DNA of 64,000 nt from Zobellia galactanivorans (GTDB lineage: Bacteria; Bacteroidota; Bacteroidia; Flavobacteriales; Flavobacteriaceae): positions 744,001-808,000 of the forward strand of contig NC_015844.1 in assembly GCF_000973105.1 (NCBI RefSeq). The letters are read 5' to 3'. This document shows, in pieces, positions 6,944 through 47,997 of this stretch. A program made the translations under genes and the position numbers. The first letter of the stretch is position 1. Each line of letters starts with the position of its first letter. A model generated the notes under the pieces. The model saw nothing but the letters and a program-made list of their open reading frames with translations. It searched no databases and was not told where the DNA came from.

Positions 6944-6950
6944 CCATAAA

Positions 6951-6985: not shown

Positions 6986-7011
6986 TTTAACTCAACTCAA
7001 CTTAAACAATC

Positions 7012-7596: not shown

Positions 7597-7613
7597 GTCG
7601 TTGTTGTTTTGTA

Positions 7614-9306: not shown

Positions 9307-9340
9307 AAAAATCGGCCATTTTGTAATGACCGATTTTTTT
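9306..9340 (+). terminator. Terminator after the alkB-like gene
   Basis: AAAAATCGGCCATT and AATGACCGATTTTT flank a short loop and end in eight T. There is one mismatch on the plus strand, which becomes a G-U pair on the minus strand, so it may also act on transcripts of the convergent nuclease gene. Confidence 0.8.
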
Positions 9341-9492
9341 TGCCCTTTAGCTATGGGAAGGTTACTGTCTTTAAACGTCGGGCGCCGAATAATTTCCTCG
9401 CAACCATCTACATAAATATAACTTCAAATAGACGAGCGGGGTATAAGCATTCGTTGAATTCCAGTTTTTTTTGATAAATGGTCGACTACATT

Positions 9493-10263: not shown

Positions 10264-10307
10264 GGACAAAATTTACGGACAAAAGTAGAAAATTAGAGTT
10301 TAATCTA

Positions 10308-12617: not shown

Positions 12618-12644
12618 ACCCAACAAACTTTAAATACCGAACCC

Positions 12645-13448: not shown

Positions 13449-13479
13449 TTATATTTGAAAAAAAGCATTCCAAAATCAT

Positions 13480-14796: not shown

Positions 14797-14848
14797 GTTA
14801 CAGTCACTTTTTAGTACATAAAATTGAAGGTATTTAAGTCTCAATAGA

Positions 14849-25200: not shown

Positions 25201-28200
25201 GGACGGGTAGGCCATATCTACACCATTGGCATCTACGGTTCCGTTTGGAGCTAGGTAGGCCGCGGTGGTCTGCGCTTCCACATTATCGGGAATACCATCG
25301 CCATCACTATCTAAATCCAAATAGTTGGGAATAGAATCCGTATCATCGGGACTTTCGGCAAGGGTATACGTAACCGTAGCCCCTTGTGTATCGTCGGATT
25401 GAATACCGTTGAACAGCCCGTTATTGCCAAAATCAACGGCGGTTCCATCAATTCGACCATCGGTATCGGCATCAACTTGACCATGGCCCGCTTCAACCCC
25501 GTCAAAGATTCCGTCGTTATCGGAATCGAGGTCAAATATATTCGGGATACCATCACCGTCGGTGTCACAGTTCTCGACTTTTACGCCGTAATCAACACTC
25601 GCTAAATTGTCTCCGTATATGCCATCGTTATAATAAAAATATAAAGGTCCGCTCGTAGTCGCTATTGGAATACTACCCGGAACCAGGGGGTCAACGGGCC
25701 CCAATAGCTCATCAACGCCATCCTCATATGTACCGTTAGCGTTCACATCAACAATACCATAAAAAACATAAAATCCGCTATTTACCAAACCTCCCGTTGC
25801 CGCGGAATTGGCAGGATGATAGGTAAAGTCGGAATTGTAGACCGCCGTTACCCCATTGAGGGTCGCCCCTCCGCTAGTTGTATTGGTCAAATAGATATTG
25901 ATCGTTTGACCCGCAAAAGGCCCATCGACAGCTTCCCCGGTGAGAATGCCTGCCGCCGATACATTTTGAATATCCAAAATATACTTGACGCCAGCTTCCA
26001 GCACGGCATTGGAATTTTGCAAGGTATTTACATTGGAACGTACATTTTGTCCTGTTACGATATGGGCACAAACATTTTCATCGGTATCCAAAATACCGTC
26101 GTTGTCGTCATCAAGGTCTACCTCATCTGCAATACCATCCCCATCGTTATCGGGTCTATCATCGGTAGCATCCCTAAAATCAACATCACCGCCTGAATGC
26201 ACATCGTGGTCTTCATCGGGAAGTTGAACCGAGCCGATCGTAGGGTCGTCTATAGTGCCTCCCGGATCTGTGTAGCCCGTAAGGTCGGTATCGATAGCAT
26301 CATCGAGACCATCGTTATCGATATCGTTCCCGGTCAAAACAATTTGTACCTCGGCCGTATCGTTTCCGCCTTCATTATCGGAATCGAGGTCTAAATAATC
26401 TGGATTATCCGTGGTATCGGTATTTACGGGTGAAACACCCCCTAAGTAAGCCGAGTTTACACCGTTATTGGCACGATATGTCGCCTCATCATCAGGGTTC
26501 GGAGCCTGATATGCCTGAGTGGACTGTGCCTCTACATTATCGGGAATGCCATCGCCGTCGCTATCTAAATCTTTGTGATCGGAAATACCGTCATTGTCAA
26601 AATCGGCAAGACAAAAGGTCGGCTGTATAAATCGTGTCGATGTGTTCGAGCTATGGACAAAGTTCAATACAATACGACTCACCGGTCTTTCAAAATAAAA
26701 GTAAATGGCCCCGTTAACATCGTCTGCCGGATCGTTGCCATCCGAATCAAAACTACCGGCCACAAAGGTATTTCCTGTTTGAGTAATACCCGAGCCGACC
26801 AACACGAGGCCCTCCACATCTAGGTCGTACATTACATTATTCTCATCGTAAACCTCAATGGTGTATTGGGTGCCATTATCGAAATCGGTCATCTTAAAAA
26901 AGACATTTTCGATAGGCGTGCCATAAGTTGAGGTCAAACTTCCCGTGTCTCCCGCTTGCCCTTCTATTCGGATACCATGACCGTTCAAGCCCGTATCATA
27001 GGTATATATGTTCGTACTTGCAACTTTGCTAACCGTATAGCTTACATCGGTTCCCACGAGAGCGTAGGTAGTATCGGTAATAGGATTCCCCATACCGACC
27101 GTGCCGGACAGGTTTGTGTTTTCACAACCTTCCGTTGTGTCTAAAATACCATCGTTATCATCGTCTAGATCAACTACGTCGCCTACGCCATCGCCATCGG
27201 TATCGGGACCGTTCAAGGCGTCTAGGCACAGGGTAAAGGTATCGGTCGTAGTAATATACCTGTTATCGACCGTGAGATAATAGATTTCCCCCGGTGTAAG
27301 GCCCCAGTGCCGGATCCTCAAATCATCTTCCGGATCCGAATAGGTGGTACACGCCAATTCGGTAACGGCATCATTTTCCCAAAGCGCCATATAGGCATGG
27401 CGAAGGGTTCCCTTACTATCTCCCCTATCCATTCTTATATCGATCTTGCCTGAAGGAGGGGCTACAAAACTGAACCATTTGTTGTGGTTGACCAAGTCTG
27501 TCCAGCACGAAGCCGTGTTTTGATCAAAGGTAGCACCCAATGTTGTGTAGGCCGCATCGGGAGAACAGGTACCTATTAGGCCCGTTATATCGGTCGCCCC
27601 TTGGTAGTAATCGTTCGTTGCCTGATCGCTCAGGCAGAGGGAAAACGTATCGAGGGCGTGAATGTATCGGTTATCGACCGACACATAATAGGTGTTGCCA
27701 GGGGTGAGTCCCGTAGCCAGAAGGGAAATATCATCGTAATGACGGCCCGTCCTATGGGTATTACAGGCCAATTCGGTAACACCATCACTGTCCCACAAGG
27801 CCAAATAAGCGGTCTGCAGGGTTCCTTTTTCATCGCCCCTATCCAGTTTTACCTCAATATTTCCGGTTGCCGGGGCGGTAACCTCGAACCAAACATTTCT
27901 GTGGGGACCCGTATACCAGCACGAACCTGCATTTCGATCAGCGGATGCCCCGAGAGTGGAAAAGACCGCATCCCCGGAACACCCGTTCATAAAGGAATCG
28001 ATATTTATGGCCCCTTCCAAGTAATCGTTGGTCGGGGTATCGCTAAGACATAACTTAAAGGTCTCGGCACCGGATGGTGTGCCGTAATGGCGGTCTACGG
28101 AAAAAAGGTAGGTATCGCCGGGAGTAAGTCCGTTGGCCAAAATCGAAATATCGTCGCTAACGGTGTCAAATGAACTACAAGCAATCTGGGTCGTACCCGT

Positions 28201-28563
28201 AGCGTCCCAGAGGGCCATCATGGCATAACGCATATCACCCGTCATGTCACCTGTTATGGTTCCCCTGTCCAAGTTGATCTGTATGGTACCCGTGGCGCTC
28301 GCCACAAAACTGAACCATACATTGGCATTAGGTCCCGAGGGCCAGCAAGAACCCGCACTGCCATCGGGCGTAGCATTTAATGTCGTATAGGCCGCATCGG
28401 CCGAGCAACTATTTAAGGAAAGGTGAATGGCATTGGCCCTATTATCGTTTGAAGGCTGAGCCCATAAGGACTGCCCCATAAACAAGAACAGTAGCACTAG
28501 AAAACTATGACACCTAAGGTACTCACCAAAAAAGTGGGAATTTCTTTTTTTTCGAACACGCAT
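22228..28563 (-). CDS. Giant T9SS type B surface protein (2111 aa)
   Basis: This is a cell-surface or secreted adhesin-like protein with a signal peptide at about 1-35 (ending SLWAQ). Three tandem modules of about 140 residues follow (each with NVWF/NKWF, a DRG motif and LTPG.TY), in the style of pre-peptidase/CUB-like beta-sandwiches. Long acidic runs of thrombospondin type 3-like DxDxDGxxD repeats include two large copies of a NVEAQ...DPGGTID...GGDVDFRD block. Near 1588-1681 is an Ig-like domain and near 1684-1792 a Calx-beta domain. The last 95 residues are a gliding-motility-associated type B sorting domain (VVTPNGDGAHD, IYNRWG, LPSGTYFYIL, SGYIYLN). A calcium-dependent stalk is implied. 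It lies 61 nt after a PorP/SprF gene, its likely export partner. Confidence 0.92.
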   Translation of the reverse strand: MRVRKKRNSHFFGEYLRCHSFLVLLFLFMGQSLWAQPSNDNRANAIHLSLNSCSADAAYTTLNATPDGSAGSCWPSGPNANVWFSFVASATGTIQINLDRGTITGDMTGDMRYAMMALWDATGTTQIACSSFDTVSDDISILANGLTPGDTYLFSVDRHYGTPSGAETFKLCLSDTPTNDYLEGAINIDSFMNGCSGDAVFSTLGASADRNAGSCWYTGPHRNVWFEVTAPATGNIEVKLDRGDEKGTLQTAYLALWDSDGVTELACNTHRTGRHYDDISLLATGLTPGNTYYVSVDNRYIHALDTFSLCLSDQATNDYYQGATDITGLIGTCSPDAAYTTLGATFDQNTASCWTDLVNHNKWFSFVAPPSGKIDIRMDRGDSKGTLRHAYMALWENDAVTELACTTYSDPEDDLRIRHWGLTPGEIYYLTVDNRYITTTDTFTLCLDALNGPDTDGDGVGDVVDLDDDNDGILDTTEGCENTNLSGTVGMGNPITDTTYALVGTDVSYTVSKVASTNIYTYDTGLNGHGIRIEGQAGDTGSLTSTYGTPIENVFFKMTDFDNGTQYTIEVYDENNVMYDLDVEGLVLVGSGITQTGNTFVAGSFDSDGNDPADDVNGAIYFYFERPVSRIVLNFVHSSNTSTRFIQPTFCLADFDNDGISDHKDLDSDGDGIPDNVEAQSTQAYQAPNPDDEATYRANNGVNSAYLGGVSPVNTDTTDNPDYLDLDSDNEGGNDTAEVQIVLTGNDIDNDGLDDAIDTDLTGYTDPGGTIDDPTIGSVQLPDEDHDVHSGGDVDFRDATDDRPDNDGDGIADEVDLDDDNDGILDTDENVCAHIVTGQNVRSNVNTLQNSNAVLEAGVKYILDIQNVSAAGILTGEAVDGPFAGQTINIYLTNTTSGGATLNGVTAVYNSDFTYHPANSAATGGLVNSGFYVFYGIVDVNANGTYEDGVDELLGPVDPLVPGSIPIATTSGPLYFYYNDGIYGDNLASVDYGVKVENCDTDGDGIPNIFDLDSDNDGIFDGVEAGHGQVDADTDGRIDGTAVDFGNNGLFNGIQSDDTQGATVTYTLAESPDDTDSIPNYLDLDSDGDGIPDNVEAQTTAAYLAPNGTVDANGVDMAYPSGLVPTNTDGADNPDYLDLDSDNEGGDDTTEARIVRNGLDVDNDGLDDALDADTSGYTDPGGTIDNPLTGPLVLPDGDSDAGSGGDVDFRDTTDDRPDNDNDGVVDAEDLDDDNDGILDTDEGCGNFIINGSFEQDNFTDATAFPDGFTGANGTFIGTTYNTNSLTGWTYTQNLDGWVNGGSFGAGTFAPAIDGSQYLDLVGNNNVTGGVSNEITQEVTLVQGESYTFSFYWGEDIAHLSGQTVTLDFDIIDANGVPILDETLTTIATGEVGGQVGPKKWFYEERTFVASTDEITVRFSAQPFATNESSGAALDLVSLKYSTPTDCIDTDNDGIPDAFDLDSDNDGIYDADEADHGALHSNGVLTGTVGADGIPDSVQDDPDNRTVNYTVLDSDTDGSIDAQELDADNDGCFDVEEAGFTDGDADDLLGSSTLTVDANGLVTSASDGYTAPQDRNGNGIPEYREATLSPVISTQPSESSVCLGETASFSVVATDVDQYQWQMFDGSHWTDLTDGGLYSGTDTHTLEIANTTIGESGNRYRVVVSNSLRVCSVLNSDEAVLNVETTPSISIDDASEVEGGSIVFPVTLSSVGCLAQDITLTLAFTDGTADTADYTNNTVQITIPAGSLTGEVNVPTTQDEILEDDETFTISILSVDAGNVADFSDTAIGTILDDDFTDFDSDNDGILDSVEDLNADGDNNPSTNPTDSDGDSFPDYLDIDSDNDGIPDNVEAQTTAGYIAPSLVDANNNGLDDAYENGTELGLYPVNTDGTDQPDYLDLDSDNDHVPDAIEAHDRDHDGMADVSFIGSDKDDDGLDDGYEGSETIDDDVNDEMDRPFDRLPNADGDDELDYRDTDDDNDGIPTQDEDTNGDGNYANDDQNNNGVPDYLEEPYIEVVVYNVVTPNGDGAHDTLTITGLDVRPNNNIQIYNRWGILIFSTESYGTRNNYFEGYSTARLTSGKEEKLPSGTYFYILNYEDTTGEHKTISGYIYLN

Positions 28564-28624: not shown

Positions 28625-29575
28625 CTAAAAGAAGCGGGGAGATTTTAAATTCCCCTTAGTGCTTATAAAGTCATATCGCAAGATGGCCTCAAAAGAACCC
28701 GAATTATAGATTGCCGCACCCAACTCGGTAACTTCTCGATCATAGGCCAGGCCAATCAAGAATTTTTTCGAAATATTAAAGCCGACCATACCACTAAACG
28801 CGGCATCCCAACGATAGGCGGCCCCTAGAATAAACTTTTCGCTAAACATAAAGTTGGCCGAAACGTCTACCTGTAAGGGAGCACCTGTTACCAACTTGGT
28901 CAATAAAGCCGGTTTAAACTTGACATTATCGTTTAGATCCCACACGTAACCAGTAATCAAATAAAAGTTCATCTGTTCTTTTGCGGTAGAGGGGTCAGGC
29001 CCATCCTTAAAGTGGAGCGTCTGTAAAATTCGCGGTACGGAAAGTCCCGCATAAAACCTTTCATTGTGGTAATAGACCCCTGCCCCTATATTGGGCGAAA
29101 ACTTATTTTCGATATCGTTCTGGAGACTTGCATCACTTGTATACTGGTTGAGTTCTGAAAAGCGAACATCCAATAAATGGCCACTCCCCTTAAGGCCGAA
29201 GCTTAACCTTCCTTCGGTAGAAGTATATACCGTATATGAAAAATCTATGTCAAAATAGGTCTCTGAAGTGGGACCGATCTTATCGTTTACTATGGACAGG
29301 CCCAGCCCCACGCCCCTATACCCGATAGGCGAATGTAGATTAAACGTTTGGGTGGTTGGCGCCCCATCTAGCCCGACCCATTGCGAACGATGCAAAAGAG
29401 CCGTACTTACATGGCCACGGGAACCTGCATAGGCGGGGTTCACGCTTACCGTATTGTACATATATTGGGTGTATTGGGAATCTTGTTGTGCAATGGCATT
29501 TTGAATACTTGCCACTAATAGCAGGGCTAGCATTACACCAAATTGACGAGCGGTTGTTATGAGATTTGGGATCAT
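28625..29575 (-). CDS. PorP/SprF family T9SS outer-membrane protein (unit B)
   Basis: The 316-residue protein has a signal peptide (ending AIAQ) and the family N-terminus QQDSQYTQYMYNTVSVNPAYAGSRG, then an amphipathic beta-strand pattern with RSQWVGLDGAP and a C-terminal Phe (SPRFF), as expected of an outer-membrane beta-barrel. SprF-type proteins are needed for secretion and surface attachment of type B T9SS substrates such as SprB. It sits between two type B substrate genes: 9 nt after the 675-residue protein and 61 nt before the 2111-residue protein. It is clearly paralogous to the unit A protein at 47,024. Confidence 0.93.
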   Translation of the reverse strand: MIPNLITTARQFGVMLALLLVASIQNAIAQQDSQYTQYMYNTVSVNPAYAGSRGHVSTALLHRSQWVGLDGAPTTQTFNLHSPIGYRGVGLGLSIVNDKIGPTSETYFDIDFSYTVYTSTEGRLSFGLKGSGHLLDVRFSELNQYTSDASLQNDIENKFSPNIGAGVYYHNERFYAGLSVPRILQTLHFKDGPDPSTAKEQMNFYLITGYVWDLNDNVKFKPALLTKLVTGAPLQVDVSANFMFSEKFILGAAYRWDAAFSGMVGFNISKKFLIGLAYDREVTELGAAIYNSGSFEAILRYDFISTKGNLKSPRFF

Positions 29576-29583
29576 CGTTACTA

Positions 29584-31611
29584 CTATCGGTTAATGTATA
29601 TATATCCTGAAAGGGATTGCTGCTCCCCTTTAGCATCCTTGTAATCTAAAATATAGAAATAGGTACCTACCGGCAGTTTTCTATCGGTATCAACGGTCAC
29701 CCTTCCTTGGGAGGTACCGTCAAACACGTTGCCCTCGGTATTATAAGCCTGTGTGGTATAGACCAAAACACCCCATCTGTTATAGATCCGTATGGAATTA
29801 TCGGGATATTTTTCCAGGCCTGTAATCGTAAGAAAATCATGTGCCCCATCATTATTGGGCGTTACCACGTTAAACACTTCAATAGGGTCTTCCTCAACAT
29901 TAGGCTCTAAGTACTCAGGTATTCCGTTGCCATCGGTATCGTCATTGGCGTAATTTCCATCAATATTAATGTCTTCATCCTTACTTTGAATACCATCATC
30001 ATCATCATCGGTATCCCTATAATCGACCTCCCCATCACCATCTGTATTCAGTAGATCATTGTACGGATCGTCGATTTCGTCATTGACATCGATATCAATA
30101 ATGGTTTCTCCCTCATAGCCATCATCAAGGCCATCACGGTCTTTATCAGAACCGATAAAGGTTACATCGGGAATACCATTTCTATCGTGGTCATGAGCCT
30201 CAATACTATCAGGTACATTATCATTATCACTATCGGCATCAACGTAATCGGGAATACCGTCGTTGTCGGTATCTTCCGGGATAATGCCCAATAATCCATT
30301 TGTTTCATAGGCATCGTCAACCCCATTTCCGTTGAAATCCTCTCCGCTTGGCGCCACATAGTCAAGCGTAGTCTGGGCCTCAACATTGTCGGGGACTCCG
30401 TCATTATCACTATCGATATCCAAATAATCGGGAATACCATCGTTGTCGGTATCGGTGGGGTCCGTTGCCGGATCGTTATCGGCATCTAGATTCAAGTCCT
30501 CAAAACTATCAAGTATACCATCGTTATCGGTATCAAGGTCGATAGCGTTGGTAACCAAAATGCTTACCGTAGCGGTATCACAATTACCGACCGTATCGCA
30601 AAGGGTATAGGTAAACGAATCGCTACCGTTAAAATTTGTGTTTGGCGTATAGTTCCATATATCATCCGATAGGTCATTGGGGGTTCCGCCATCATTGCGG
30701 GTCAAAGTTCCATTGGAAGGGTCGGTTGAGGTTAGGCTTCCTGCGGAAGGAAGGTCATTGTCATTGCCGAGAATATCCAATGCTATAGGGGCATCTTGTG
30801 TCGTTGCAAAGCTATCATCAATAGCATCTAAAATAGGAAGCACATCGACCGTTACCGTAGCCGTACTACAATCGCCATAGATATTACAGACCGAATAATT
30901 AAAAGAATCGGGACCGTTGTAATCGGGGTTAGGAATATACGTTACGATATCATCGGTGGGGTCGTTAGGTGTTCCGTTGTTAGCAACATTAACGGTACCG
31001 TTTGTCGGATTGGTAGTCGTAAGCCTCCCTTCGGTCGGCAGCTCACTATCATTTGCAAAAATATCTACAATTACCGAATCGTCTTCGTCTACAATAACCA
31101 AATCATCTACCAGAATGGCCGATTCATCGATACAGACTACGGTAAAGCTGGGCAAATTTTTGGTGTTTCCCGCCTTGGTAATGGTGGCAATATACCGTTC
31201 GAGTGTTTTGGTAGCAATCACCATCGGGGCATTTTGGTCACCCGGCAAAGGAGGGGTCCAGCTAACCGAAGCTCCAGGAGAAAGGTGGGCCGTATTGTCA
31301 CTGATATCAAGCGTAACCTCGTTGTAGGGGGAATTACAATTGGTCACAATAAAATAACTCGTCGCGTTCTTACCGCATAAAGTACCGTCATAGGTTGCGA
31401 AATAGATTCCCTGATCGGTTACTTCCAAAAACGATTCGGTACTTAGAACCGTGCCTGTATCTTGAGCCTCATACCAACGAAAATTGGTTCGGGTCTCTTC
31501 AGCCGAATCCGGCGGAGCCTGTAAGACATACTGAGCATTAGATACCACAAGTCCCAGTAAAGTAAAAACCATACTGAGGACAAGTTTTTTATATGTAGAT
31601 TTCGCTTTCAA
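29584..31611 (-). CDS. T9SS type B surface protein with cadherin-like domains (675 aa)
   Basis: A signal peptide (about 1-26, ending VVSNA) is followed by an Ig-like N-terminal part. Two tandem cadherin-like/Ig modules lie near 160-252 and 253-345; each has a DIxxNDxxLP pattern and a YxPNxxxNGxDSFxYxxC pattern. Thrombospondin type 3-like calcium-binding repeats cover about 355-570. The final 95 residues are a type B sorting domain (VVTPNNDGAHDFL, IYNRWG, LPVGTYFYIL, SGYIYINR). The protein is expected to be exported by T9SS and held at the surface. It follows the giant repeat protein by 22 nt and precedes a PorP/SprF gene by 9 nt, so it is translated within the same operon. Confidence 0.92.
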   Translation of the reverse strand: MKAKSTYKKLVLSMVFTLLGLVVSNAQYVLQAPPDSAEETRTNFRWYEAQDTGTVLSTESFLEVTDQGIYFATYDGTLCGKNATSYFIVTNCNSPYNEVTLDISDNTAHLSPGASVSWTPPLPGDQNAPMVIATKTLERYIATITKAGNTKNLPSFTVVCIDESAILVDDLVIVDEDDSVIVDIFANDSELPTEGRLTTTNPTNGTVNVANNGTPNDPTDDIVTYIPNPDYNGPDSFNYSVCNIYGDCSTATVTVDVLPILDAIDDSFATTQDAPIALDILGNDNDLPSAGSLTSTDPSNGTLTRNDGGTPNDLSDDIWNYTPNTNFNGSDSFTYTLCDTVGNCDTATVSILVTNAIDLDTDNDGILDSFEDLNLDADNDPATDPTDTDNDGIPDYLDIDSDNDGVPDNVEAQTTLDYVAPSGEDFNGNGVDDAYETNGLLGIIPEDTDNDGIPDYVDADSDNDNVPDSIEAHDHDRNGIPDVTFIGSDKDRDGLDDGYEGETIIDIDVNDEIDDPYNDLLNTDGDGEVDYRDTDDDDDGIQSKDEDINIDGNYANDDTDGNGIPEYLEPNVEEDPIEVFNVVTPNNDGAHDFLTITGLEKYPDNSIRIYNRWGVLVYTTQAYNTEGNVFDGTSQGRVTVDTDRKLPVGTYFYILDYKDAKGEQQSLSGYIYINR

Positions 31612-31632: not shown

Positions 31633-34600
31633 TTATTTAACAACAAAAACTACGTTTATCAATGAGTTGTAACTTGCGGGTTGGGCAATAACATCATAGG
31701 TCATGACGCCAAATTCATCGACCGAAACATTGGTAAAAACGGCGGTATCGTAATAAGTGACATAGTAATACAATTCGTTATTCGCATATGTTGGAATAGC
31801 TGACGGTGCCGAAGTACTAGCTACCATTGGTGAACCGAATTGAGCTATGTACTGATCGTGTAAGTTTATGGTTCTTCCCGTACCGTTTGTAGAAGCATCT
31901 ACTTCAATGGATGGAGGATAGAAAACCTTTGAGGCCTTTAATGAATTTATTTCAACAATGTCACCATCTGCCTCAACACCTAATAGTGATGTGGCATTAC
32001 CGGTTACAGCATTAGATCCATAATCAGAAAAACGTACGGTTCCACCTTCTACATCTAACTTAGCATCCGGTGAATTTGTTCCGATACCTACTTCATTACT
32101 CAGACCATCAGTAAATAATAAATGGGTGTCTGACGTACCTTCTACCCTGAAATCATAATCTCCACCACCTTCATTGATCGTTACCCTGTTATCTACCCTT
32201 AAATAAGAATTTGTAAGGATTCCGTTCGTAAATCCACTGTTATGATTTATACGCAACCAAGTATCGGAATCTCTTAAGACCTCCTTACCGTTCATAAACA
32301 GATAATCGTTAAGCTCAATGTTCCCCTCGACGTCTAAAGCCCTATTATTGGTTATAGATGTTTTTCCAATAGCAACATTACCCTCGGTGAAAATATCATC
32401 GGTAATGGCATCTGGAGCAGATGTACCCCCGACTTCATACCAATCGTGATCGGAAAAGCTAGACAATGGCACATCTAAGTTACCACCACCATCGGTTAAC
32501 CTTAGGTTGGATCCTACAACCCCAAAAGCCGTATTGTATTCGTTGGTTGGATCGGCATCGGCATCCTCAATGCTTATGGTCGTATTGGTACCGTCGTTTA
32601 TCTGTATTTCAACAGATTCATTGGGTACAACTACCGCACTGCTCAAGTTTTGATCATCCCTAAAATCGGTAAGATCAACCGTAGTATCCGCACTGGTGCC
32701 ATTCGCCAAGGTGATGATGTTTCCCGATAGGCTGATCTGTTGGTTATCGGTGTTTGCCAGGCTCGATAAGTTTACCGTCTCAGAACTACCATCTTCTATT
32801 CCAATGGTCAGGGTAGTTCCCGATAGCCCGGAACCTTTTATACTTTGATTATCGGCCAGGGCGGCCAGACTCACGGTATCAGAACTACCGCCTTCGATAC
32901 CTACCGTTAACGTTGTTCCCGAAAAGGTCAAGTTTTGAATATTTTGGTTGTCCGTTCCCGGATTGTCCAAATGTGATAAGTCTACGGTTTGCGCTGTACC
33001 ATTTTCAATACCAACAGTAAGTATATTCGAGCTTGTATTAATTGCAAGGTCTTCAATATTCTGATTATCGGTGTTGTCTAAATAAGGACTTAAATCTACT
33101 TGGTTCGCAGGAGTAGCCGGGTTTGTCAACGTCAGAATATCACTTGCCAAGCTTAAATCGGTAAGTTCGTTGGTCGCGCTGTTATCGTTATTGGCCGGAA
33201 AGTTGACCTCCAAATCATAGTCCCCATCGGTCTCGCTCAAGGTCACAGAGCCATCCGTAGAGGTCAAGGTCTGGATTTCGTTGTTCGGGTCCGCATCGGC
33301 ATCATCCGTATCGACCGTTACCGAACCGCCATCTACCAAGGAAATCGTTTTTCCCGTAGCGTCAATCGACAGGTCCTGTGTATCCGTATTCGTGTATGAG
33401 GACAAGTCGATATCCGTGGCACCCGTATTATTCGTGACCTTTAGGATGTTTCCCGTAAGGCTTAGATCTTGTATCTCGTTATTTGGGTCGGCATCGGCAT
33501 CATCCGTATCGACCGTTACCGAACCGCCATCTACCAAGGAAATCGTTTTTCCCGTAGCGTCAATCGACAGGTCCTGCGTATCCGTATTCGTGTATGGGGA
33601 CAAATCGATATCCGTGGCACTTGTATTATTCGTGACCTTTAGGATATTCCCCGTAAGGCTCAAATCTTGGATCTCATTATTTGGATCAGCATCGGCATCG
33701 TCCGTATCCAAGGCATCCACATAGGCCTTAGTGGCCGCGTCCTGTGGAGCGATTGGGTCGGCCAAGTTCGTGATGGCCTGGTTGCCAGCACTTGGGTCCT
33801 CCCCTATTACATCCTCTAGATCTTGGATCTCGTTGTTCGGGTCCGCATCGGCATCGTCCGTATCGACCGTTACCGAACCGCCATCTACCAAGGAAATCGT
33901 TTTTCCCGTAGCGTCAATCGACAGGTCCTGTGTATCCGTATTCGTGTATGGGGACAAATCGATATCAGTGGCACCCGTATTATTCGTGACCTTTAAGATA
34001 TTCCCCGTAAGGCTCAGATCTTGTATCTCATTATTTGGATCAGCATCGGCATCATCCGTATCGACCGTTACCGAACCGCCATCTACCAAGGAAATCGTTT
34101 TTCCCGTAGCGTCAATCGACAGGTCCTGTGTATCCGTATTCGTGTATGCGGACAAGTCGATATCCGTGGCACCCGTATTATTCGTGACCTTTAGGATGTT
34201 TCCCGTAAGGCTTAGATCTTGGATCTCGTTGTTCGGGTCGGCATCGGCATCGTCCGTATCGACCGTTACCGAACCGCCATCTACCAAGGAAATCGTTTTT
34301 CCCGTAGCGTCGATCGACAGGTCCTGTGTATCCGTATTCGTGTATGGGGACAAATCGATATCCGTGGCACCTGCATTATTCGTGACCTTTAGGATATTCC
34401 CCGTAAGGCTCAAATCTTGGATCTCATTATTTGGATCAGCATCGGCATCATCCGTATCGACCGTTACCGAACCGCCATCTACCAAGGAAATCGTTTTTCC
34501 CGTAGCGTCAATCGACAGGTCCTGCGTATCCGTATTCGTATATGCGGACAAATCGATATCAGTGGCACCCGTATTATTCGTGACCTTTAAGATATTCCCC

Positions 34601-37600
34601 GTAAGGCTCAGATCTTGTATCTCATTATTTGGATCAGCATCGGCATCATCCGTATCGACCGTTACCGAACCGCCATCTACCAAGGAAATCGTTTTTCCCG
34701 TAGCGTCAATCGACAGGTCCTGTGTATCCGTATTCGTGTATGCGGACAAGTCGATATCCGTGGCACCCGTATTATTCGTGACCTTTAGGATGTTTCCCGT
34801 AAGGCTCAAATCTTGTATCTCGTTATTTGGGTCGGCATCGGCATCATCCGTATCGACCGTTACCGAACCGCCATCTACCAAGGAAATCGTTTTTCCCGTA
34901 GCGTCAATCGACAGGTCCTGCGTATCCGTATTCGTGTATGGGGACAAATCGATATCCGTGGCACTTGTATTATTCGTGACCTTTAGGATATTCCCCGTAA
35001 GGCTCAGATCTTGGATCTCATTGTTCGGGTCGGCATCGGCATCGTCCGTATCCAAGGCATCGACATAAGCCTTAGTGGCCGCGTCCTGTGGAGCGGTTGG
35101 GTCGGCCAAGTTCGTGATGGCCTGGTTGCCAGCACTTGGGTCCTCCCCTATTACATCCTCTAGATCTTGGATCTCGTTGTTCGGGTCCGCATCGGCATCA
35201 TCCGTATCGACCGTTACCGAACCGCCATCTACCAAGGAAATCGTTTTTCCCGTAGCGTCGATCGACAGGTCCTGCGTATCCGTATTCGTGTATGGGGACA
35301 AATCGATATCCGTGGCACTTGTATTATTCGTGACCTTTAGGATATTCCCCGTAAGGCTCAAATCTTGTATCTCGTTATTTGGGTCGGCATCGGCATCGTC
35401 CGTATCGACCGTTACCGAACCGCCATCTACCAAGGAAATCGTTTTTCCCGTAGCGTCAATCGACAGGTCCTGCGTATCCGTATTCGTGTATGGGGACAAA
35501 TCAATATCAGTGGCACCCGTATTATTCGTGACCTTTAGGATATTTCCCGTAAGGCTCAAATCTTGTATCTCATTATTTGGATCAGCATCGGCATCGTCAG
35601 TATCCAAGGCATCCACATAGGCCTTAGTGGCCGCGTCCTGTGGAGCGGTTGGGTCGGCCAAGTTCGTGATGGCCTGGTTGCCAGCACTTGGGTCCTCCCC
35701 TATTACATCCTCTAGATCTTGGATCTCGTTGTTCGGGTCCGCATCGGCATCATCCGTATCGACCGTTACCGAACCGCCATCTACCAAGGAAATCGTTTTT
35801 CCCGTAGCGTCAATCGACAGGTCCTGTGTATCCGTATTCGTGTATGCGGACAAGTCGATATCCGTGGCACCCGTATTATTCGTGACCTTTAGGATGTTCC
35901 CCGTAAGGCTTAGATCTTGTATCTCATTATTTGGATCAGCATCGGCATCGTCCGTATCGACCGTTACCGAACCGCCATCTACCAAGGAAATCGTTTTTCC
36001 CGTAGCGTCAATCGACAGGTCCTGTGTATCCGTATTCGTGTATGAGGACAAATCGATATCCGTGGCACTTGTATTATTCGTGACCTTTAGGATGTTTCCC
36101 GTAAGGCTCAGATCTTGGATCTCGTTGTTAGGGTCGCCGTCCAAATCGAGTGTCGCGTTTCCACCTACGGCATTCCATGTACTTCCATCATAAACATATA
36201 ATTGTCCCGCTACCTCATCGACATAGGTAACACCGCTATTGCTCGGCGTAACCGATGGGGCCCCGCTGCCTAATAATGTCAGCTCATTGGTAGGGTCCGC
36301 ATCCGCATCGTCCAAGGAAGGCACATCCACGATCAGGTCGGGATATGTTCCGCTCACCACAACATTTCCGCTACCTCCATCAGTGATGGTCACGGTTTGA
36401 TCGGGTGCGGCATTCACTACTTCAAAATTTTGTCCGCTTTGGTTTACCGTTATACCGGTTCCCGAGGAAACCGTTTGGTTCTCATTGTTCGGGTCCGCAT
36501 CGGCATCCTGAATGTTTATGGTCGTAGAACCACCACGCTCCAAATTGATGGACACGGTTTCATTGGCCGTGGCCACAGCGCTACCGATCTGTTGGTCATC
36601 GCTACTATTGGCCGCCAAATCCTCCAAAGCTTCCTGTACGTTGGTTTCGTTTACACTATCCCCGTCCACGTCAAATGGAGTTCCCAAAGCTACTTCAGCA
36701 GCATCCTGGATCTCGTTCGTGGCATCGGCATCCGCATCATCGACATTTAGATTGATCGCATTCCCTTCGGAAATACTTACGTTACCCGGATTGCCATCAG
36801 TACTTAAGGTCTGGTCATCGCTACTGTTAGCGGCCAAATCCTCCAAAGCTTCCTGTACGTTCGTTTCGTTCACACTATCCCCGTCCACGTCAAAAGGAGT
36901 TCCCAAAGCTACTTCAGCAGCGTCTTGGATTTCGTTCGTGGCATCGGCATCCGCATCCTGAATGTTTATGGTCGTAGAACCACCACGCTCCAAATTGATG
37001 GACACGGTTTCATTGGCCGTGGCCACAGCGCTACCGATCTGTTGGTCATCGCTACTATTGGCCGCCAAATCCTCTAAAGCTTCCTGTACGTTGGTTTCGT
37101 TTACACTATCCCCGTCCACGTCAAAAGGAGTTCCCAAAGCTACTTCAGCAGCATCCTGGATCTCGTTATTTGGGTCCGAATCGGCATCGTCCGTATCGAC
37201 CGTTACCGAACCGCCATCTACCAAGGAAATCGTTTTTCCCGTAGCGTCGATCGACAGGTCCTGCGTATCCGTATTCGTGTATGCGGACAAATCAATATCC
37301 GTGGCACTTGTATTATTCGTGACCTTTAGGATGTTTCCCGTAAGGCTTAGATCTTGTATCTCGTTGTTAGGGTCGGCATCGGCATCGTCCGTATCCAAGG
37401 CATCCACATAGGCCTTAGTGGCCGCGTCCTGTGGAGCGGTTGGGTCGGCCAAGTTCGTGATGGCCTGGTTGCCAGCACTTGGGTCCTCCCCTATTACATC
37501 CTCTAGATCTTGGATCTCGTTGTTCGGGTCCGAATCGGCATCGTCAGTATCCAAGGCATCCACATAGGCCTTAGTGGCCGCGTCCTGTGGAGCGGTTGGG

Positions 37601-39720
37601 TCGGCCAAGTTCGTGATGGCCTGGTTGCCAGCACTTGGGTCCTCCCCTATTACATCCTCTAGATCTTGGATCTCGTTGTTCGGGTCCGAATCGGCATCGT
37701 CAGTATCCAAGGCATCCACATAGGCCTTAGTGGCCGCGTCCTGTGGAGCGGTTGGGTCGGCCAAGTTCGTGATGGCCTGGTTGCCAGCACTTGGGTCCTC
37801 CCCTATTACATCCTCTAGATCTTGGATCTCGTTATTGGGGTCTCCATCTAAATCAGGACTCGCATTTCCACCTACGGCATTCCATGTACTTCCATCATAA
37901 ACATATAATTGTCCCGCTACCTCATCGACATAGGTAACCCCACTATTGCTCGGGGTTACGGACGGAGCTCCATTGCCCAACAAAGTAAGTTCGTTAGTAG
38001 CATCCTCATCAGGATCTGTTGAATTTACCGTATAATTTCCATCGCCATCATCCGACACTGAAATCGCACCTGTTCCGGCGATTACGGTTTCTACAAGCGA
38101 TGATAAATCGACACTTGTTGAACTCCCTCTTTCAATCTCAATCTGTAATTGATTTGTTCCACTTAAAGTGGCTCCGGTCAAATTCTGGTTATCACTACTA
38201 TTCGCAGCTAAATCGGCAATAGCCTCTTCTACCGTATTTTCGTCTACACTATCTCCATCAACGTCCAAAGGTGTTGTTAAGTTCACCTCGGTCGCTTCTT
38301 GATCATCGGTACCATCAAAACTTGTTGTAGTTCCGTTTTCGGATGAATACACATAATTTACGTTATCAGCAGTAGATAAAGTAGTAATCGTTTCGTCGAT
38401 TTGCGTGGTAGTACCATCGGCCTCGGTTACCGTGGCAATCAGATTACCGGCGATAACATCGGTTATGGCGATGCCGTTCGTGTTGATATCCACATCCGTT
38501 CCGTCACCATTGGTAAACCTATAAAGTCCCCCTCCTAAGTCCGTGATATCCGATTTGGCGACTGTTACATCGGTTCCGGTCTCATCGACCAAAGTAATAT
38601 TGCCGTCGTTACGGTCCTCGATACGTACAATGCTCTCTTGGATAGAGACGGTAGTACCATCTTCCTTTTCGTAAATACCTATTTCGTTTCCTGTAGTCGA
38701 TGTACCCGTGATATCCGTTATCGTCTCGTCGATCTCGGTGACACTTCCATCGGCCTCGGTCACAGTAGCTATCAGATTACCGGCGATAATATCGGTTATG
38801 GCGATGCCGTTCGTGTTGATATCGATATCCGTTCCGTCGCCATTGGTAAACCGATAAAGTCCACCTCCTAAGTCCGTGATATCCGATTTGGCGACTGTTA
38901 CATCGGTTCCGGTCTCATCGACCAAAGTAATATTGCCGTCGTTACGGTCCTCGATACGTACAATGCTCTCTTGGATAGAGACGGTAGTACCATCTTCCTT
39001 TTCGTAAATACCTATTTCGTTTCCTGTAGTCGATGTACCCGTGATATCCGTTATCGTCTCGTCGATCTCGGTGACACTTCCATCGGCCTCGGTCACAGTA
39101 GCTATCAGATTACCGGCGATAATATCGGTTATGGCGATGCCGTTCGTGTTGATATCCACATCCGTTCCGTCGCCATTGGTAAACCTATAAAGTCCACCTC
39201 CTAAGTCCGTGATATCCGATTTGGCGACTGTTACCGTTGCTCCAGATTCGTTTGTAAAAGTTACATTGCCATCACCAGCATCGCTTATAGCCGTTATGGT
39301 TTCGTTAATGGTTACTATATCGCCATTCTCATTCTCGTAAACACCTATGGCATTCCCTGTGGGCGCCGTTCCCGATAAGGTCGTAATAGTCTCAACAGGC
39401 AAAGTCACCGTTGCCGTACCTCCGTTTTCAAGGGTTAGCGAAAGTACCCCTGTTCCATTATCAAAAGTAAAACTCTGAAGCTGTTGGTCATCGGATGATG
39501 TCAATTCCCAAGAATCGCCATCCCAAAAATAAATGGTGCCGGTATCGGTATTCACATAAATATCTCCGAGATCGGCTCCTGCAGGAGTAGCCACTCCCGG
39601 TGCAGTAACATCGACACCGCTTAACACTTCACAGTTACATTGGTCTTCTAAATTGACCGTAGTCTGTGCAAATGTTAATCCGGAGATTAAAAAAACGAGG
39701 ATTATACTTATTTTTTTCAT
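31633..39720 (-). CDS. Giant repetitive fibre-like surface protein (2695 aa)
   Basis: The chosen start (ATG at 39720) gives a clear signal peptide, MKKISIILVFLISGLTFAQ; the frame continues 11 codons upstream, which would bury it. Three 111-residue repeats (encoded 39,396-38,398) come first, then arrays of 52-, 66- and 73-77-residue repeats joined by a DDADADPNNEIQ linker. The 52-residue unit holds ITNLADPTAPQDAATKAYVD, a motif typical of phage tail fibres. Near the C-terminus GIGTNSPDAKLDVEGG resembles the region before tail-fibre or S74-type ends. No type A or type B T9SS sorting domain is seen. I infer an elongated, possibly trimeric stalk or fibre. It is the first gene of the operon with two type B proteins and PorP/SprF. 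Confidence 0.85.
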   Translation of the reverse strand: MKKISIILVFLISGLTFAQTTVNLEDQCNCEVLSGVDVTAPGVATPAGADLGDIYVNTDTGTIYFWDGDSWELTSSDDQQLQSFTFDNGTGVLSLTLENGGTATVTLPVETITTLSGTAPTGNAIGVYENENGDIVTINETITAISDAGDGNVTFTNESGATVTVAKSDITDLGGGLYRFTNGDGTDVDINTNGIAITDIIAGNLIATVTEADGSVTEIDETITDITGTSTTGNEIGIYEKEDGTTVSIQESIVRIEDRNDGNITLVDETGTDVTVAKSDITDLGGGLYRFTNGDGTDIDINTNGIAITDIIAGNLIATVTEADGSVTEIDETITDITGTSTTGNEIGIYEKEDGTTVSIQESIVRIEDRNDGNITLVDETGTDVTVAKSDITDLGGGLYRFTNGDGTDVDINTNGIAITDVIAGNLIATVTEADGTTTQIDETITTLSTADNVNYVYSSENGTTTSFDGTDDQEATEVNLTTPLDVDGDSVDENTVEEAIADLAANSSDNQNLTGATLSGTNQLQIEIERGSSTSVDLSSLVETVIAGTGAISVSDDGDGNYTVNSTDPDEDATNELTLLGNGAPSVTPSNSGVTYVDEVAGQLYVYDGSTWNAVGGNASPDLDGDPNNEIQDLEDVIGEDPSAGNQAITNLADPTAPQDAATKAYVDALDTDDADSDPNNEIQDLEDVIGEDPSAGNQAITNLADPTAPQDAATKAYVDALDTDDADSDPNNEIQDLEDVIGEDPSAGNQAITNLADPTAPQDAATKAYVDALDTDDADADPNNEIQDLSLTGNILKVTNNTSATDIDLSAYTNTDTQDLSIDATGKTISLVDGGSVTVDTDDADSDPNNEIQDAAEVALGTPFDVDGDSVNETNVQEALEDLAANSSDDQQIGSAVATANETVSINLERGGSTTINIQDADADATNEIQDAAEVALGTPFDVDGDSVNETNVQEALEDLAANSSDDQTLSTDGNPGNVSISEGNAINLNVDDADADATNEIQDAAEVALGTPFDVDGDSVNETNVQEALEDLAANSSDDQQIGSAVATANETVSINLERGGSTTINIQDADADPNNENQTVSSGTGITVNQSGQNFEVVNAAPDQTVTITDGGSGNVVVSGTYPDLIVDVPSLDDADADPTNELTLLGSGAPSVTPSNSGVTYVDEVAGQLYVYDGSTWNAVGGNATLDLDGDPNNEIQDLSLTGNILKVTNNTSATDIDLSSYTNTDTQDLSIDATGKTISLVDGGSVTVDTDDADADPNNEIQDLSLTGNILKVTNNTGATDIDLSAYTNTDTQDLSIDATGKTISLVDGGSVTVDTDDADADPNNEIQDLEDVIGEDPSAGNQAITNLADPTAPQDAATKAYVDALDTDDADADPNNEIQDLSLTGNILKVTNNTGATDIDLSPYTNTDTQDLSIDATGKTISLVDGGSVTVDTDDADADPNNEIQDLSLTGNILKVTNNTSATDIDLSPYTNTDTQDLSIDATGKTISLVDGGSVTVDTDDADADPNNEIQDLEDVIGEDPSAGNQAITNLADPTAPQDAATKAYVDALDTDDADADPNNEIQDLSLTGNILKVTNNTSATDIDLSPYTNTDTQDLSIDATGKTISLVDGGSVTVDTDDADADPNNEIQDLSLTGNILKVTNNTGATDIDLSAYTNTDTQDLSIDATGKTISLVDGGSVTVDTDDADADPNNEIQDLSLTGNILKVTNNTGATDIDLSAYTNTDTQDLSIDATGKTISLVDGGSVTVDTDDADADPNNEIQDLSLTGNILKVTNNAGATDIDLSPYTNTDTQDLSIDATGKTISLVDGGSVTVDTDDADADPNNEIQDLSLTGNILKVTNNTGATDIDLSAYTNTDTQDLSIDATGKTISLVDGGSVTVDTDDADADPNNEIQDLSLTGNILKVTNNTGATDIDLSPYTNTDTQDLSIDATGKTISLVDGGSVTVDTDDADADPNNEIQDLEDVIGEDPSAGNQAITNLADPIAPQDAATKAYVDALDTDDADADPNNEIQDLSLTGNILKVTNNTSATDIDLSPYTNTDTQDLSIDATGKTISLVDGGSVTVDTDDADADPNNEIQDLSLTGNILKVTNNTGATDIDLSSYTNTDTQDLSIDATGKTISLVDGGSVTVDTDDADADPNNEIQTLTSTDGSVTLSETDGDYDLEVNFPANNDNSATNELTDLSLASDILTLTNPATPANQVDLSPYLDNTDNQNIEDLAINTSSNILTVGIENGTAQTVDLSHLDNPGTDNQNIQNLTFSGTTLTVGIEGGSSDTVSLAALADNQSIKGSGLSGTTLTIGIEDGSSETVNLSSLANTDNQQISLSGNIITLANGTSADTTVDLTDFRDDQNLSSAVVVPNESVEIQINDGTNTTISIEDADADPTNEYNTAFGVVGSNLRLTDGGGNLDVPLSSFSDHDWYEVGGTSAPDAITDDIFTEGNVAIGKTSITNNRALDVEGNIELNDYLFMNGKEVLRDSDTWLRINHNSGFTNGILTNSYLRVDNRVTINEGGGDYDFRVEGTSDTHLLFTDGLSNEVGIGTNSPDAKLDVEGGTVRFSDYGSNAVTGNATSLLGVEADGDIVEINSLKASKVFYPPSIEVDASTNGTGRTINLHDQYIAQFGSPMVASTSAPSAIPTYANNELYYYVTYYDTAVFTNVSVDEFGVMTYDVIAQPASYNSLINVVFVVK
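33277..36120 (-). repeat. Array of 198-bp and 156-bp coding repeats
   Basis: Fifteen consecutive units fill this block with no extra bases: twelve of 198 bp (66 residues, IQDLSLTGN...ISLVDGGSVTV) and three of 156 bp (52 residues, IQDLEDVIGE...KAYVDALDT), which sum to 2844 bp. In translation the 198-bp units differ mainly at two spots (T/A then G/S before ATDIDLS, and P/A/S before YTNTD). At DNA level they are nearly identical apart from scattered synonymous changes. Confidence 0.95.
36481..37161 (-). repeat. Three 219-231-bp coding repeats
   Basis: Three units each begin IQDAAEVALGTPFDVDGDSV and continue NETNVQEALEDLAANSSDDQ. The first and third are 77 residues with an LERGGSTTINIQ tail; the middle one is 73 residues with a different second half (TLSTDGNPGNVSISEG). 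The unit boundaries are 37161-36931, 36930-36712 and 36711-36481. Confidence 0.92.
37162..37827 (-). repeat. One 198-bp and three 156-bp coding repeats
   Basis: Reading the gene direction, three back-to-back 156-bp tail-fibre-motif units (37827-37360) are followed by one 198-bp unit (37359-37162). They are the same families as the 33277-36120 block but separated from it by the 219-231-bp repeats and a unique stretch. Confidence 0.92.
38398..39396 (-). repeat. Three 333-bp coding repeats
   Basis: Three 111-residue units share VAKSDITDLGGGLYRFTNGDG and the tail NTNGIAITDIIAGNLIATV. The last two are nearly identical at DNA level; the first (39396-39064) is diverged in its N-terminal half. Confidence 0.9.
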
Positions 39721-40286: not shown

Positions 40287-43200
40287 TTAATTCTTCTTTA
40301 CCCGGTAGGTTATTCTACGGTTTGTAATTACGGTATACGCTTTAACAATGCTTAGGGGAGAAAACTCAGAAGTAGTATTGGCCAAGGTAGCCGTTGTAGT
40401 TACCGATTTTCCTAGGCTAATACCTGGCGGAGCAGGTATACTGAACTTAAACTTATTGGTGTTATCGGTATTATTGTCATCATCGGTATAGGTCGTAACC
40501 TGTGAATCGGTGTCTATCGGGCCACCTTCGACCATAGTGGCAAGATATATTTGTCCTTCACCATAATCGTATGTCATTCCCAACTTATTATCTCCAATGG
40601 CGGCAGACCCCTCATTAATGTCGGTTGCAAACAGTTCTAAAGTTGCCCCTGGCCTTGACCATCCTTCAATGACAAGATTGGTTCCGGAAAGATAAGCCCC
40701 AGTGATTATCGGAAAATTTAGAAGTCCATTAGGGCCATTATCGGTATCACCTGAATCGTTAATAGTGACCCCATCTCCCATACTGTCGGATGCATCTAAA
40801 TCGATACCTAATGCCGGACTAGCGGTTCCATTCGCATAAATAGCGTTTCTAGAAATTAGGTTGCCCGAGGTATTCCCCCCTCCAAGAACAACACCGGCGC
40901 CTCCATTTGAAGCGATTATATTCTGGGTCAGGGTAGAATTGCTTCCATCGAGACGAATGCCGGCATTGGCATCATCTCCGGTACACTTACCACCGTCTTG
41001 GCCTGAATTTACTATTGTATTTTCCGTAATCGTGAGTCCACCCGAAATTCCTTCGCCATCAATTCCTAAGGAAGCTGCCTTATCTATTAAATTCTGTTGG
41101 ATCAAAATACCCGATCCCCCACTTACTTTTATATTATCAAAACACGCATTGCTTCCATTATCGGTTATATGGTTGTTTTGAATAACGGTAGACGTTCCTC
41201 CGTTGACCAAAATACCCTCATCAGTGTTTCTTGCAATGTAGTTGCCCTCTATGGTCGTTATACCACCTGTAACTTCTACCCCATAATCAATATCACCAGA
41301 TGCATTACCAAGGGCATTGACTCCTAATAAGTTATGCGATACGGTAGCCGAACCACCTTCAACCTTTACTCCGGCATTATCACCCGCACGAACGGCAATA
41401 TTACGTACTTCCACATTGGTGCCATTCAATTGGAGGACATCGCCATTTGCGCTATAAAGTTCAATTTCAGGTCTATCGAAATCAGGTAAAATGGTATTCG
41501 AAACGCCAACCCCTGTTCCCCCGGAACCTACGGTTCCCGCATTGGTATTTCCCGAATAAGCCGTTTGCGTACGACCGTCGATAACCGTATTCGTACCGGA
41601 TACAATAGGAAATTCATTGGGATTTGACATGGTAATATTGAAATATCCGTTAGCAAAATTAGTGTCGGCCGTTCTGCCCAAGGGATCTCCGGTAGTGGGT
41701 ATCATAAAAATTGAGGTATCTTCACCAGCTCCCGGATCAAATAGACCATTAGCTTCAATATCTAAGCCTACTTCACCTATACCATTGGAATTCTTAATAA
41801 ATTGGGTCAATGAACCTTGTCCGGTTTCATTGGTATTCACAATGGTATTGAAGTTGAAGCCGAAATCGATTCCCACGACACCATTACCTGCCACTTCAAC
41901 CGGTGATATACTCTGTGCATTGTTAAAAACACCTAGCGATACATCTTGCCCTGCTTTTGGGTCGGCCCCACCAACCTCATTAATGACATCTACAATACTG
42001 CTAGAAACGACTTCGGTCCTATAAGTCTGTACCGGATAACAATTCGAGCAATTGGCCCCATTGTCCCTTGTGGACCTTACCGTCGAACTTACCACTTTTA
42101 CAAAGTAGTCACCATCGGCCATCCCCCCGAACGAGTAATTCCCGTTCGCCTCGGTATTTTTTCTTTGGATGAAGTTGCCCGAGGAATCGAAGAGTTCTAC
42201 GATTGCCCCCGAAATTCCTATCCCGCCCGTAGTCAATTGGTTTCGACCCGGACCTCCAGGATAATTAACATCCTCAAAAACACGTCCTGCAATCAAATTT
42301 GATGGAACTTTTAAGACTACAGCTGCGGAAATAACAAAATCTTGACCTACATCTACGTTGGCCGTTACCTCACTATCCGCAGTTTGAATAAATGAGGAGA
42401 TATCATAGGTATCTAAATCTACACCATAGGTACTGGCATTATTATAAACGGGTGGCCCTACAGTGTTATCGTAAATTGTAGAATTATAAGAGTTATTACC
42501 GGTTTGGCCACCATCGCCCGTAAGTATAAAGTTTTGGTTACGCTGGTTGGTAATGGACAGTTCTTCCGGGTTGGTAGAACCCGAACTTGAACCATTAAGA
42601 TCCGGATCGCCTTCCCATGATAAGAAAGAAGCTTTAGCTCCAGTGCCAGAAATGGCATAAAACGAATCTAAGGTAAATGAGTTACCGTCATTACTTAATC
42701 CGTCAAAACCTTGATATAAGTTAATGTTTACGGCCGGCAAGGAACGGTCTTCATAAAACACCATTAGCGCCCAGCCCCCTAACACCGTACTTGTAGTACA
42801 ATATTCTCCCGTATTATTAATCGTAAGACCACTAAAATCGAAGACGTTGCCCGATAAATTAGATATACCTTGAACAATTGTGGTTACATCACTCACATAC
42901 CCAAAAAAGTTTCTGTTACCCAACGAAGTTTGATACAAAAAATTAGCCGATACACTCTGTCCTTCAAAGATTACATCGGGATCCCGTACCGTACTAGAAT
43001 GCGACCAATACAAATAAGCCCGTTCTACTGACGCCGTTGCCGGAACAGGGGATACCAAACTATTGGACGACGATGTAGTAACCGCACAAGGACTAGCCCC
43101 ATTAGGACTGGTACGCAACGTACCTCCCGTGGTGGTATAATCGTAATACCCATCAAATTCTTGAAACAAGGTCAAAGGGTCATTTGCCAAGATTTGTGAG

Positions 43201-47011: not shown

Positions 47012-47023
47012 AAGATATAAGGT

Positions 47024-47983
47024 TTAGAAGAAACGAGGAGAAACCAGTTTTTCAAAGGATTTCACCAATTCCCATCTTAGAAAAATTTCGAAAGACCCTG
47101 AGTTATATTGTGTACTGCCAAAGTCGGTTGTTTCTTTATCATAGGCCAAACCTAACATAATTTGGTCAGATATCTGAAATCCTGCCAAGGCACTTACTGC
47201 GGCATCCCATCTGTAAGCGGCTCCGAAGGAAAACTTTTCCGCAAAGAGGAAGTTGGCCGACACATCTACCTGAAGAGGTGCACCACCGACGACCTTTGTC
47301 AAAAGGGCCGGTTTGAACATGAGGTTATCGTTCAAATCAAATACGTAACCGGTAATCAAATAGAAGTTCACACGGTCTTTTGCCAAAAAGTCGATTTGAT
47401 TGGCATCGGAATCGGCAGAATCAAAATGCTCTACCTCCAATAAATTGGGTGCGGAAAGACCGGCATAAAACTTATTGGTGTGATAATACATACCCAAACC
47501 AACGTTCGGGGAAAACTTGTTTTCAATATTATCCGTTCCTACGGCTTCTTCAAACCCTGGTCGCTGTCGTAATTGTTCAAAATCGAGGTTCAGGATGTTA
47601 CCCCCCAATTTTAGGCCAAAAGATAGTTTTCCTTTAAGGGAAACATCGATTGAATAAGAAATCAATCCGTCTATATACGTTTCCTGAACGGTTCCTTCCC
47701 CTATTTTGTCGTTTACTACCGACAGGCCGTATCCCACATTACTATTTCGAATGGGAGAATGCAAGTTAATGGTAAAGGTTTCGGGCGAACCGTCTAAACC
47801 TACCCACTGTGACCTGTAAAGGCCCGCGATGCTGAGCTGCCCCCTAGAGCCCGCGTAGGCTGGGTTAACGCTCATCGTATTGAACATGTACTGAGTGTAT
47901 TGGGCATCTTGCTGGGCGGAAGCCGTTTGACAATAGACCAACACCAAGAATAGGGCCGCTAGTAGCTTGTTTTTTATAATCAT
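47024..47983 (-). CDS. PorP/SprF family T9SS outer-membrane protein (unit A)
   Basis: The 319-residue protein has a signal peptide (ending TASAQ), the family N-terminus QQDAQYTQYMFNTMSVNPAYAGSRG, RSQWVGLDGSP, and a C-terminal Phe (SPRFF), as in an outer-membrane beta-barrel. It matches the unit B protein at 28,625 closely over its whole length, indicating duplication. It is flanked by its likely substrate, the 1259-residue type B protein 14 nt upstream, and the PorE-like protein 12 nt downstream. Confidence 0.93.
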   Translation of the reverse strand: MIIKNKLLAALFLVLVYCQTASAQQDAQYTQYMFNTMSVNPAYAGSRGQLSIAGLYRSQWVGLDGSPETFTINLHSPIRNSNVGYGLSVVNDKIGEGTVQETYIDGLISYSIDVSLKGKLSFGLKLGGNILNLDFEQLRQRPGFEEAVGTDNIENKFSPNVGLGMYYHTNKFYAGLSAPNLLEVEHFDSADSDANQIDFLAKDRVNFYLITGYVFDLNDNLMFKPALLTKVVGGAPLQVDVSANFLFAEKFSFGAAYRWDAAVSALAGFQISDQIMLGLAYDKETTDFGSTQYNSGSFEIFLRWELVKSFEKLVSPRFF

Positions 47984-47997
47984 GCCTACTTTATAGA

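Follow-up and report, generated by a model that had tools for sequence, protein, structure and literature searches.

The window analysed here, a stretch of 64,000 nucleotides from Zobellia galactanivorans, contains a giant fibre-like open reading frame on the minus strand (31633..39720). Counted from the ATG at 39720, with a second possible start at the ATG at 39726, it codes for a protein of 2,695 amino acids, exactly the length given in the initial annotation, which had not named the strand. The protein has a mass of approximately 279 kDa and contains 514 acidic versus 66 basic residues. The features of the locus are listed below.

22228..28563, minus strand: second type B (CHU_C) protein, 2,111 aa (Pfam/NCBIfam)
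28625..29575, minus strand: partner 2, outer-membrane shuttle/anchor of the PorP/SprF family, tail LKSPRFF (PorP_SprF 9.6e-92)
29584..31611, minus strand: partner 1, T9SS type B (CHU_C) protein with Big_9 domains, likely start ATG 31572 (CHU_C 9.4e-28)
31636..31944, minus strand: CTERM, conserved C-terminal domain of the fibre, about 103 aa, ending VVFVVK at the C-terminus (homologues; model pLDDT 90)
32041..32088, minus strand: GIGTNSPDAKLDVEGG motif, residues 2545-2560, on the N-terminal side of the C-terminal domain
33272..36123, minus strand: 66-residue (198 nt) units in four arrays
37348..37842, minus strand: 52-residue (156 nt) units, 3.2 copies, holding three ITNLADP..KAYVD motifs
38414..39234, minus strand: N-terminal array of a 111-residue (333 nt) unit, 2.5 copies
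39631..39645, minus strand: DQCNC, residues 26-30
39664..39720, minus strand: signal peptide MKKISIILVFLISGLTFAQ
40287..44786, minus strand: ITN-tail protein, 1,499 aa, with Calx-beta, CUB and beta-helix domains (Pfam/NCBIfam)
40290..40331, minus strand: ITN tail VITNRRITYRVKKN at the C-terminus of this upstream neighbour
45071-51777, minus strand: complete triad of CHU_C, PorP/SprF and OmpA/PD40 (PorE-type) genes, just upstream of the fibre locus

By inspection, the N-terminus MKKISIILVFLISGLTFAQ is a Sec-type signal peptide, in agreement with the initial annotation, and complete homologues have similar starts. At the DNA level, the repeats of the fibre gene form arrays with periods of 156, 198 and 333 nt and matches of 92-97%, far above chance. 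All six motif copies that had been claimed, of the form ITNLADP[T/I]APQDAATKAYVD, were located, at residues 650, 702, 754, 1351, 1535 and 1983; five are identical and one carries an isoleucine in place of a threonine. Three of them lie in the 52-residue units, and the other three (33715-33774, 35059-35118 and 35611-35670, minus strand) break up the arrays of the 66-residue unit, which is present in 13 copies. The C-terminal motif GIGTNSPDAKLDVEGG was also found as described. Pfam and NCBIfam both returned no T9SS sorting domain (no match to TIGR04183, TIGR04131 or CHU_C), as had been stated before, and with neither a CTD match nor profile similarity the fibre does not group with T9SS type A or B substrates. 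A Pfam match to HemS (E 3.1e-10) was rejected because its score is a sum over the repeats, no single stretch of which is significant. A search of the PDB with the fibre sequence returned a weak flagellar-hook match only, and a monomer model of the C-terminal 299 residues (pLDDT 67, pTM 0.37) was poor outside the last domain. The middle region of the fibre is fully different between species, ranging from tail-fibre repeats to collagen-like GPQGPAG. Many draft contigs end inside the fibre gene, leaving loci at contig ends, and fibre lengths are therefore often underestimated in public drafts.

The DQCNC motif holds C28 and C30, which are the only cysteines of the fibre. Among 18 DQCNC fibres from other genomes, all with C-N-C after the signal peptide, 15 have exactly two cysteines; the exceptions are L123, with one extra cysteine, and the separate fibres L096 and L131, whose additional cysteines lie in the leader or close to the C-terminus. 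By analogy with SprF, the C-N-C motif may be a disulfide hook, linking fibre chains to one another or the fibre to a partner.

The fibre ends in CTERM, an undescribed family that is new here and has no Pfam or NCBIfam model. CTERM was found in 56 of 249 Flavobacteriaceae genomes, representing 52 of the 235 genera sampled, with one match per genome, on open frames of 168-4,622 amino acids, some of them truncated where a contig stops. Across a sample of 395 drawn from the whole phylum, all matches but a single marginal one fell in Flavobacteriaceae and a second family of the order, and a separate search gave a single case in a third family of the order (G038). An AlphaFold2 model of the domain (pLDDT 90, pTM 0.77) has six strands and one helix. 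Foldseek returned no confident match for this fold (best E 0.42 in the PDB and 0.12 in BFVD), and the best VIA-align scores, Z 5.2 for the tail of phage SU10 and Z 3.5 for the Sf6 tailspike, are too weak to use. CTERM was also considered as a type A or B CTD, which was rejected as it has no profile similarity to them, while A and B weakly detected each other in the same comparison. In L096, L103, L124 and L125, CTERM is found on a small separate protein encoded just downstream of the giant fibre. The fibres of these four loci end in a domain of their own, DDPGITYY...DIDLEFMFTV, the L103 version of which was not found in the PDB by sequence. Small CTERM proteins of family f5 have a tail protein nearby and no adjacent CHU_C/PorP genes.

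The genes for the CHU_C and PorP proteins lie tens of bases downstream of the fibre gene on the same strand, and the two type B proteins and the PorP/SprF protein that had been named as its neighbours are all present at this locus. The gene for the second type B protein is variable and missing downstream in several loci of the same genus. Type B proteins bind cognate PorP/SprF-like proteins and need them for secretion, and pairs of this class serve to secrete and anchor proteins of the cell surface (PMC9143113, PMC12618676). Placement relative to PorP/SprF genes in other species, which the initial annotation had proposed to examine, is non-random: a CHU_C gene followed by a PorP/SprF gene comes after 59 of 71 CTERM genes, directly in 53 and with one gene between in six, and the same order is found in 77 of 80 named CTERM loci. 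These two samples overlap, with many species in both, and the named loci come from a scan of the genome collection with a narrower CTERM alignment as query. They include Zobellia, Arenibacter, Maribacter, Muricauda/Flagellimonas, Robiginitalea, Cellulophaga, Eudoraea, Aquimarina and others, the closest being Zobellia uliginosa DSM 2061 with 99% over CTERM. The window genome has 15 PorP/SprF matches, so that chance adjacency is negligible by a rough binomial estimate, which ignores shared descent.

A Cys-Xaa-Cys tail attaches SprF to GldK (PMC12635249). The PorP protein of the fibre locus has no cysteine in its last 30 residues, and its tail, LKSPRFF, differs from the NCRCTY of the likely SprF encoded elsewhere in the genome, so it does not group with gliding SprF. 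Because Cys-Xaa-Cys is absent, the sequence makes it more likely that the CHU_C/PorP pair is a static anchor than that it takes part in gliding. A PorE/OmpA-type gene is not found directly downstream at the window locus, although it is in some relatives (L045, L104 and L133); in the window, one is present in the preceding triad (45071-47011). As this triad adjoins the fibre locus, there are two tandem type B/PorP sets.

The gene upstream of the fibre codes for the ITN-tail protein, in which Pfam and NCBIfam detected no significant T9SS CTD; it is separated from the fibre gene by 566 bp and may be a separate transcript. The tail has the near-invariant consensus ITNRRITYRVnkn. Among 47 ITN-R proteins, I, N, R, T and R are invariant and several more positions nearly so, and in 44 of them the C-terminus lies 13 residues from the I of the tail. 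The bodies that carry it are diverse in Pfam, with FG-GAP, Calx-beta plus beta-helix, C-type-lectin-like, legume lectin, IgGFc-binding and Big_9 domains, although a single-linkage comparison joins most of them via shared domains. The exact DNA pattern of the tail occurs in 41 of the 249 Flavobacteriaceae genomes, every one of which is CTERM-positive, and in none of the 193 CTERM-negative genomes; a control with the reversed pattern gave zero among the matches listed. The resulting Fisher p of 1e-34 carries no phylogenetic correction and is not to be taken at face value, because most ITN-R/CTERM genomes form one block when ranked by UvrB identity, and shared ancestry may therefore explain much of the co-occurrence. 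Support that is less dependent on this single block comes from three observations. Variant tails (ITNPM, ISNP, ISNK and ITNRM) are found next to CTERM in a scatter of other genera and in a second family; the CTERM subtype tracks the tail subtype, YPP occurring with ITN-R and YMP mostly with ITN-P/K; and G593, 19th of the about 43 genomes in the block, lacks CTERM, the tail and the N-terminal part of the CHU_C partner. ITN genes remote from the locus are likewise found only in CTERM genomes. A few CTERM loci (L045, L046 and L133) have no ITN-type neighbour. In L187 (G033:C4:347000-366000), close to the CTERM locus, a same-strand tandem of genes encodes four different ITN-tail proteins.

On one protein family, the tail and the CHU_C domain replace each other. 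IgGFc-binding proteins carry an ITN tail in the CTERM genomes G000 and G633 and a variant tail in G565, whereas their relatives in other genomes have a CHU_C-type domain or a similar C-terminus instead; in G637 and G567, which are also CTERM genomes, the family carries CHU_C and not the tail. This comparison covers 18 proteins, five of which are truncated by a contig end or have an unreadable C-terminus. In L201 (G000:C1:3349500-3366500, 343-14845, minus strand), a 682-aa IgGFc-binding ITN protein stands beside a 4,100-aa paralogue that ends in CHU_C, and the two have the same N-terminal body. No published description of the ITN tail or of this fibre was found in the literature searched. The sequences suggest that the ITN tail is a short C-terminal tag on neighbouring adhesins, previously undescribed.

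The initial annotation had described the ITNLADP motif as common in phage fibres. This stands: at a permissive cut-off (E up to 10), the 29-residue motif was found in 533 phage records, many of them annotated as tail fibre, with identities mostly of 60-80% and up to 83%. A tblastn search of phages with the 51-aa unit at E 0.001 gave no match, the 29-aa motif having matched at E 10. A match to the tail protein PHROG 1640 (E 3.5e-12) covers exactly the ITNLADP motif stretch, and a related fibre from another genus matched several tail-fibre PHROGs with E values down to 2.9e-57. The fibre thus contains a module homologous to phage tail fibres, with which it has in common the ITNLADP..KAYVD units and the GIGT..AKLDVEGG region. 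It differs from them in being chromosomal, in having a signal peptide, a C-N-C start and a CTERM end, and in the absence of phage genes around it.

Taken together, our analysis leans cautiously towards a cell-surface fibre system of marine Flavobacteriaceae, which is anchored by a type B/PorP pair and shows ITN-tagged adhesins. The giant protein would be a Sec-exported stalk of repeats of the phage-tail-fibre kind, partly collagen-like in relatives, which begins with the C-N-C pair and ends with CTERM; we infer that it is a trimer located at the cell surface. The T9SS would export both the type B CHU_C protein and the PorP/SprF protein paired with it, and these two would fix the assembly to the outer membrane; the initial annotation had suggested that operon neighbours may anchor or decorate the fibre. 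Surface proteins encoded nearby, and some encoded further away, with lectin, IgGFc-binding, beta-helix or FG-GAP bodies, would be displayed via the ITN tag, which in the simplest version docks on CTERM or on the partner complex. Such a system would probably serve to attach the cell to algae or to other surfaces. The model is weakest on export, as no recognised T9SS signal is present on the fibre or on the ITN protein of the window. A more specific version, which we put forward as speculative and rather doubtful, is a modular display in which giant stalks of the tail-fibre or collagen type carry CTERM as a dedicated receptor that captures various adhesins by a single 13-residue tag, ITNRRITYRVnkn, the N-terminal Cys-Asn-Cys fixes the stalk as a disulfide hook, and the type B/PorP pair delivers and anchors the whole complex.

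The main rival to this model casts CTERM and the ITN tail as further T9SS secretion signals, read directly by the translocon or by a PorP-type shuttle; the fibre and the adhesins would then be separate cargoes, with no requirement for binding between them. In its favour, the end of CTERM coincides with the C-terminus and 64 of 70 sequences have K as their last residue, and the replacement of the CHU_C domain by the ITN tail on IgGFc-binding proteins also fits a secretion signal, as does the existence of a CTD family beyond A and B, namely type C (PMC10202324). However, the profile comparison in which types A and B weakly detected each other left CTERM unconnected to both, a 13-residue tail is far below the known CTD length, and the tail is found only in CTERM-positive genomes. 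We consider this explanation unlikely on balance.

The co-occurrence might instead reflect clade-specific descent of a chromosomal neighbourhood; the fibre would then be an ordinary repetitive adhesin, and the roles of CTERM and the tail would be unrelated. Most ITN-R genomes do fall into the one UvrB block, and the neighbouring IDI, 6PTPS and ManA genes are conserved too. The CHU_C-PorP order is, however, also present in scattered genera outside the block, and the restriction of remote ITN genes to CTERM genomes, the matching of CTERM and tail subtypes and the joint absence in G593 likewise speak against this account, which we regard as distinctly improbable. That the locus is a prophage or tailocin remnant, for which the tail-fibre motif and the PHROG tail matches might speak, is very hard to believe, in line with the initial annotation, which had argued against a phage remnant. 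The flanks are housekeeping genes, with rpoC, rpoB and RF3 on one side and IDI, a 6PTPS-like gene and ManA on the other (the latter by inspection), and the IDI/6PTPS/ManA arrangement is kept in relatives. The fibre has a signal peptide, the locus is conserved across genera and lies in no phage neighbourhood, no phage relatives of the whole protein were found, and CTERM was detected neither in the 2.9 million viral contigs of IMG/VR nor in 50,697 phage records.

Returning to the anchored-fibre model, the locus groups with known type B/PorP surface systems. The CHU_C and PorP/SprF genes downstream of the fibre resemble the SprB-SprF and PG1035-PorP-PorE systems, in which a type B CTD adhesin is combined with a shuttle; the difference is that the giant fibre and the ITN protein of the window lack a CHU_C domain or any other recognised CTD. 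The PorP of the locus also differs from SprF by the missing Cys-Xaa-Cys tail, which ties SprF to GldK (PMC12635249). Tandem CHU_C and PorP-type genes are found in the SprC-SprD-SprB-SprF gliding operon as well, but outside the CTD the CHU_C partner of the fibre locus shows no clear relationship to the SprC-like protein. The likely sprCDBF-type operon of the window genome lies in L296/L297 (G000:C1, about 1,996,000-2,032,000), and its PorP protein ends in NCRCTY. SprC and SprD were rejected as relatives of the CTERM and ITN proteins, since neither CTERM nor an ITN tail was found in this operon. Trimeric autotransporter adhesins such as YadA and Hia are long repetitive Sec-exported surface fibres with neck-like motifs. 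The giant fibre is similar in its length, its repeats and its neck-like motifs, and Pfam gave a sub-threshold match to the Hia Trp-ring (E 0.094). It does not belong to this class, as Pfam found no YadA-type C-terminal translocator barrel and the protein ends in the beta-rich CTERM instead.

If the proposed model is correct, many marine flavobacteria, including Zobellia, Maribacter, Arenibacter, Muricauda, Robiginitalea and others, have an undescribed surface fibre in common, and surface proteins that lack a recognised T9SS signal are marked by a short tag at the C-terminus, so that surface proteomes predicted from known CTDs are incomplete. It would also open to testing by what route a giant protein lacking such a signal gets across the outer membrane, and how alga-associated bacteria assemble their structures for attachment. 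On fresh macroalgae, SprF-family and type B genes of Z. galactanivorans are induced as gene classes (PMC9296495).
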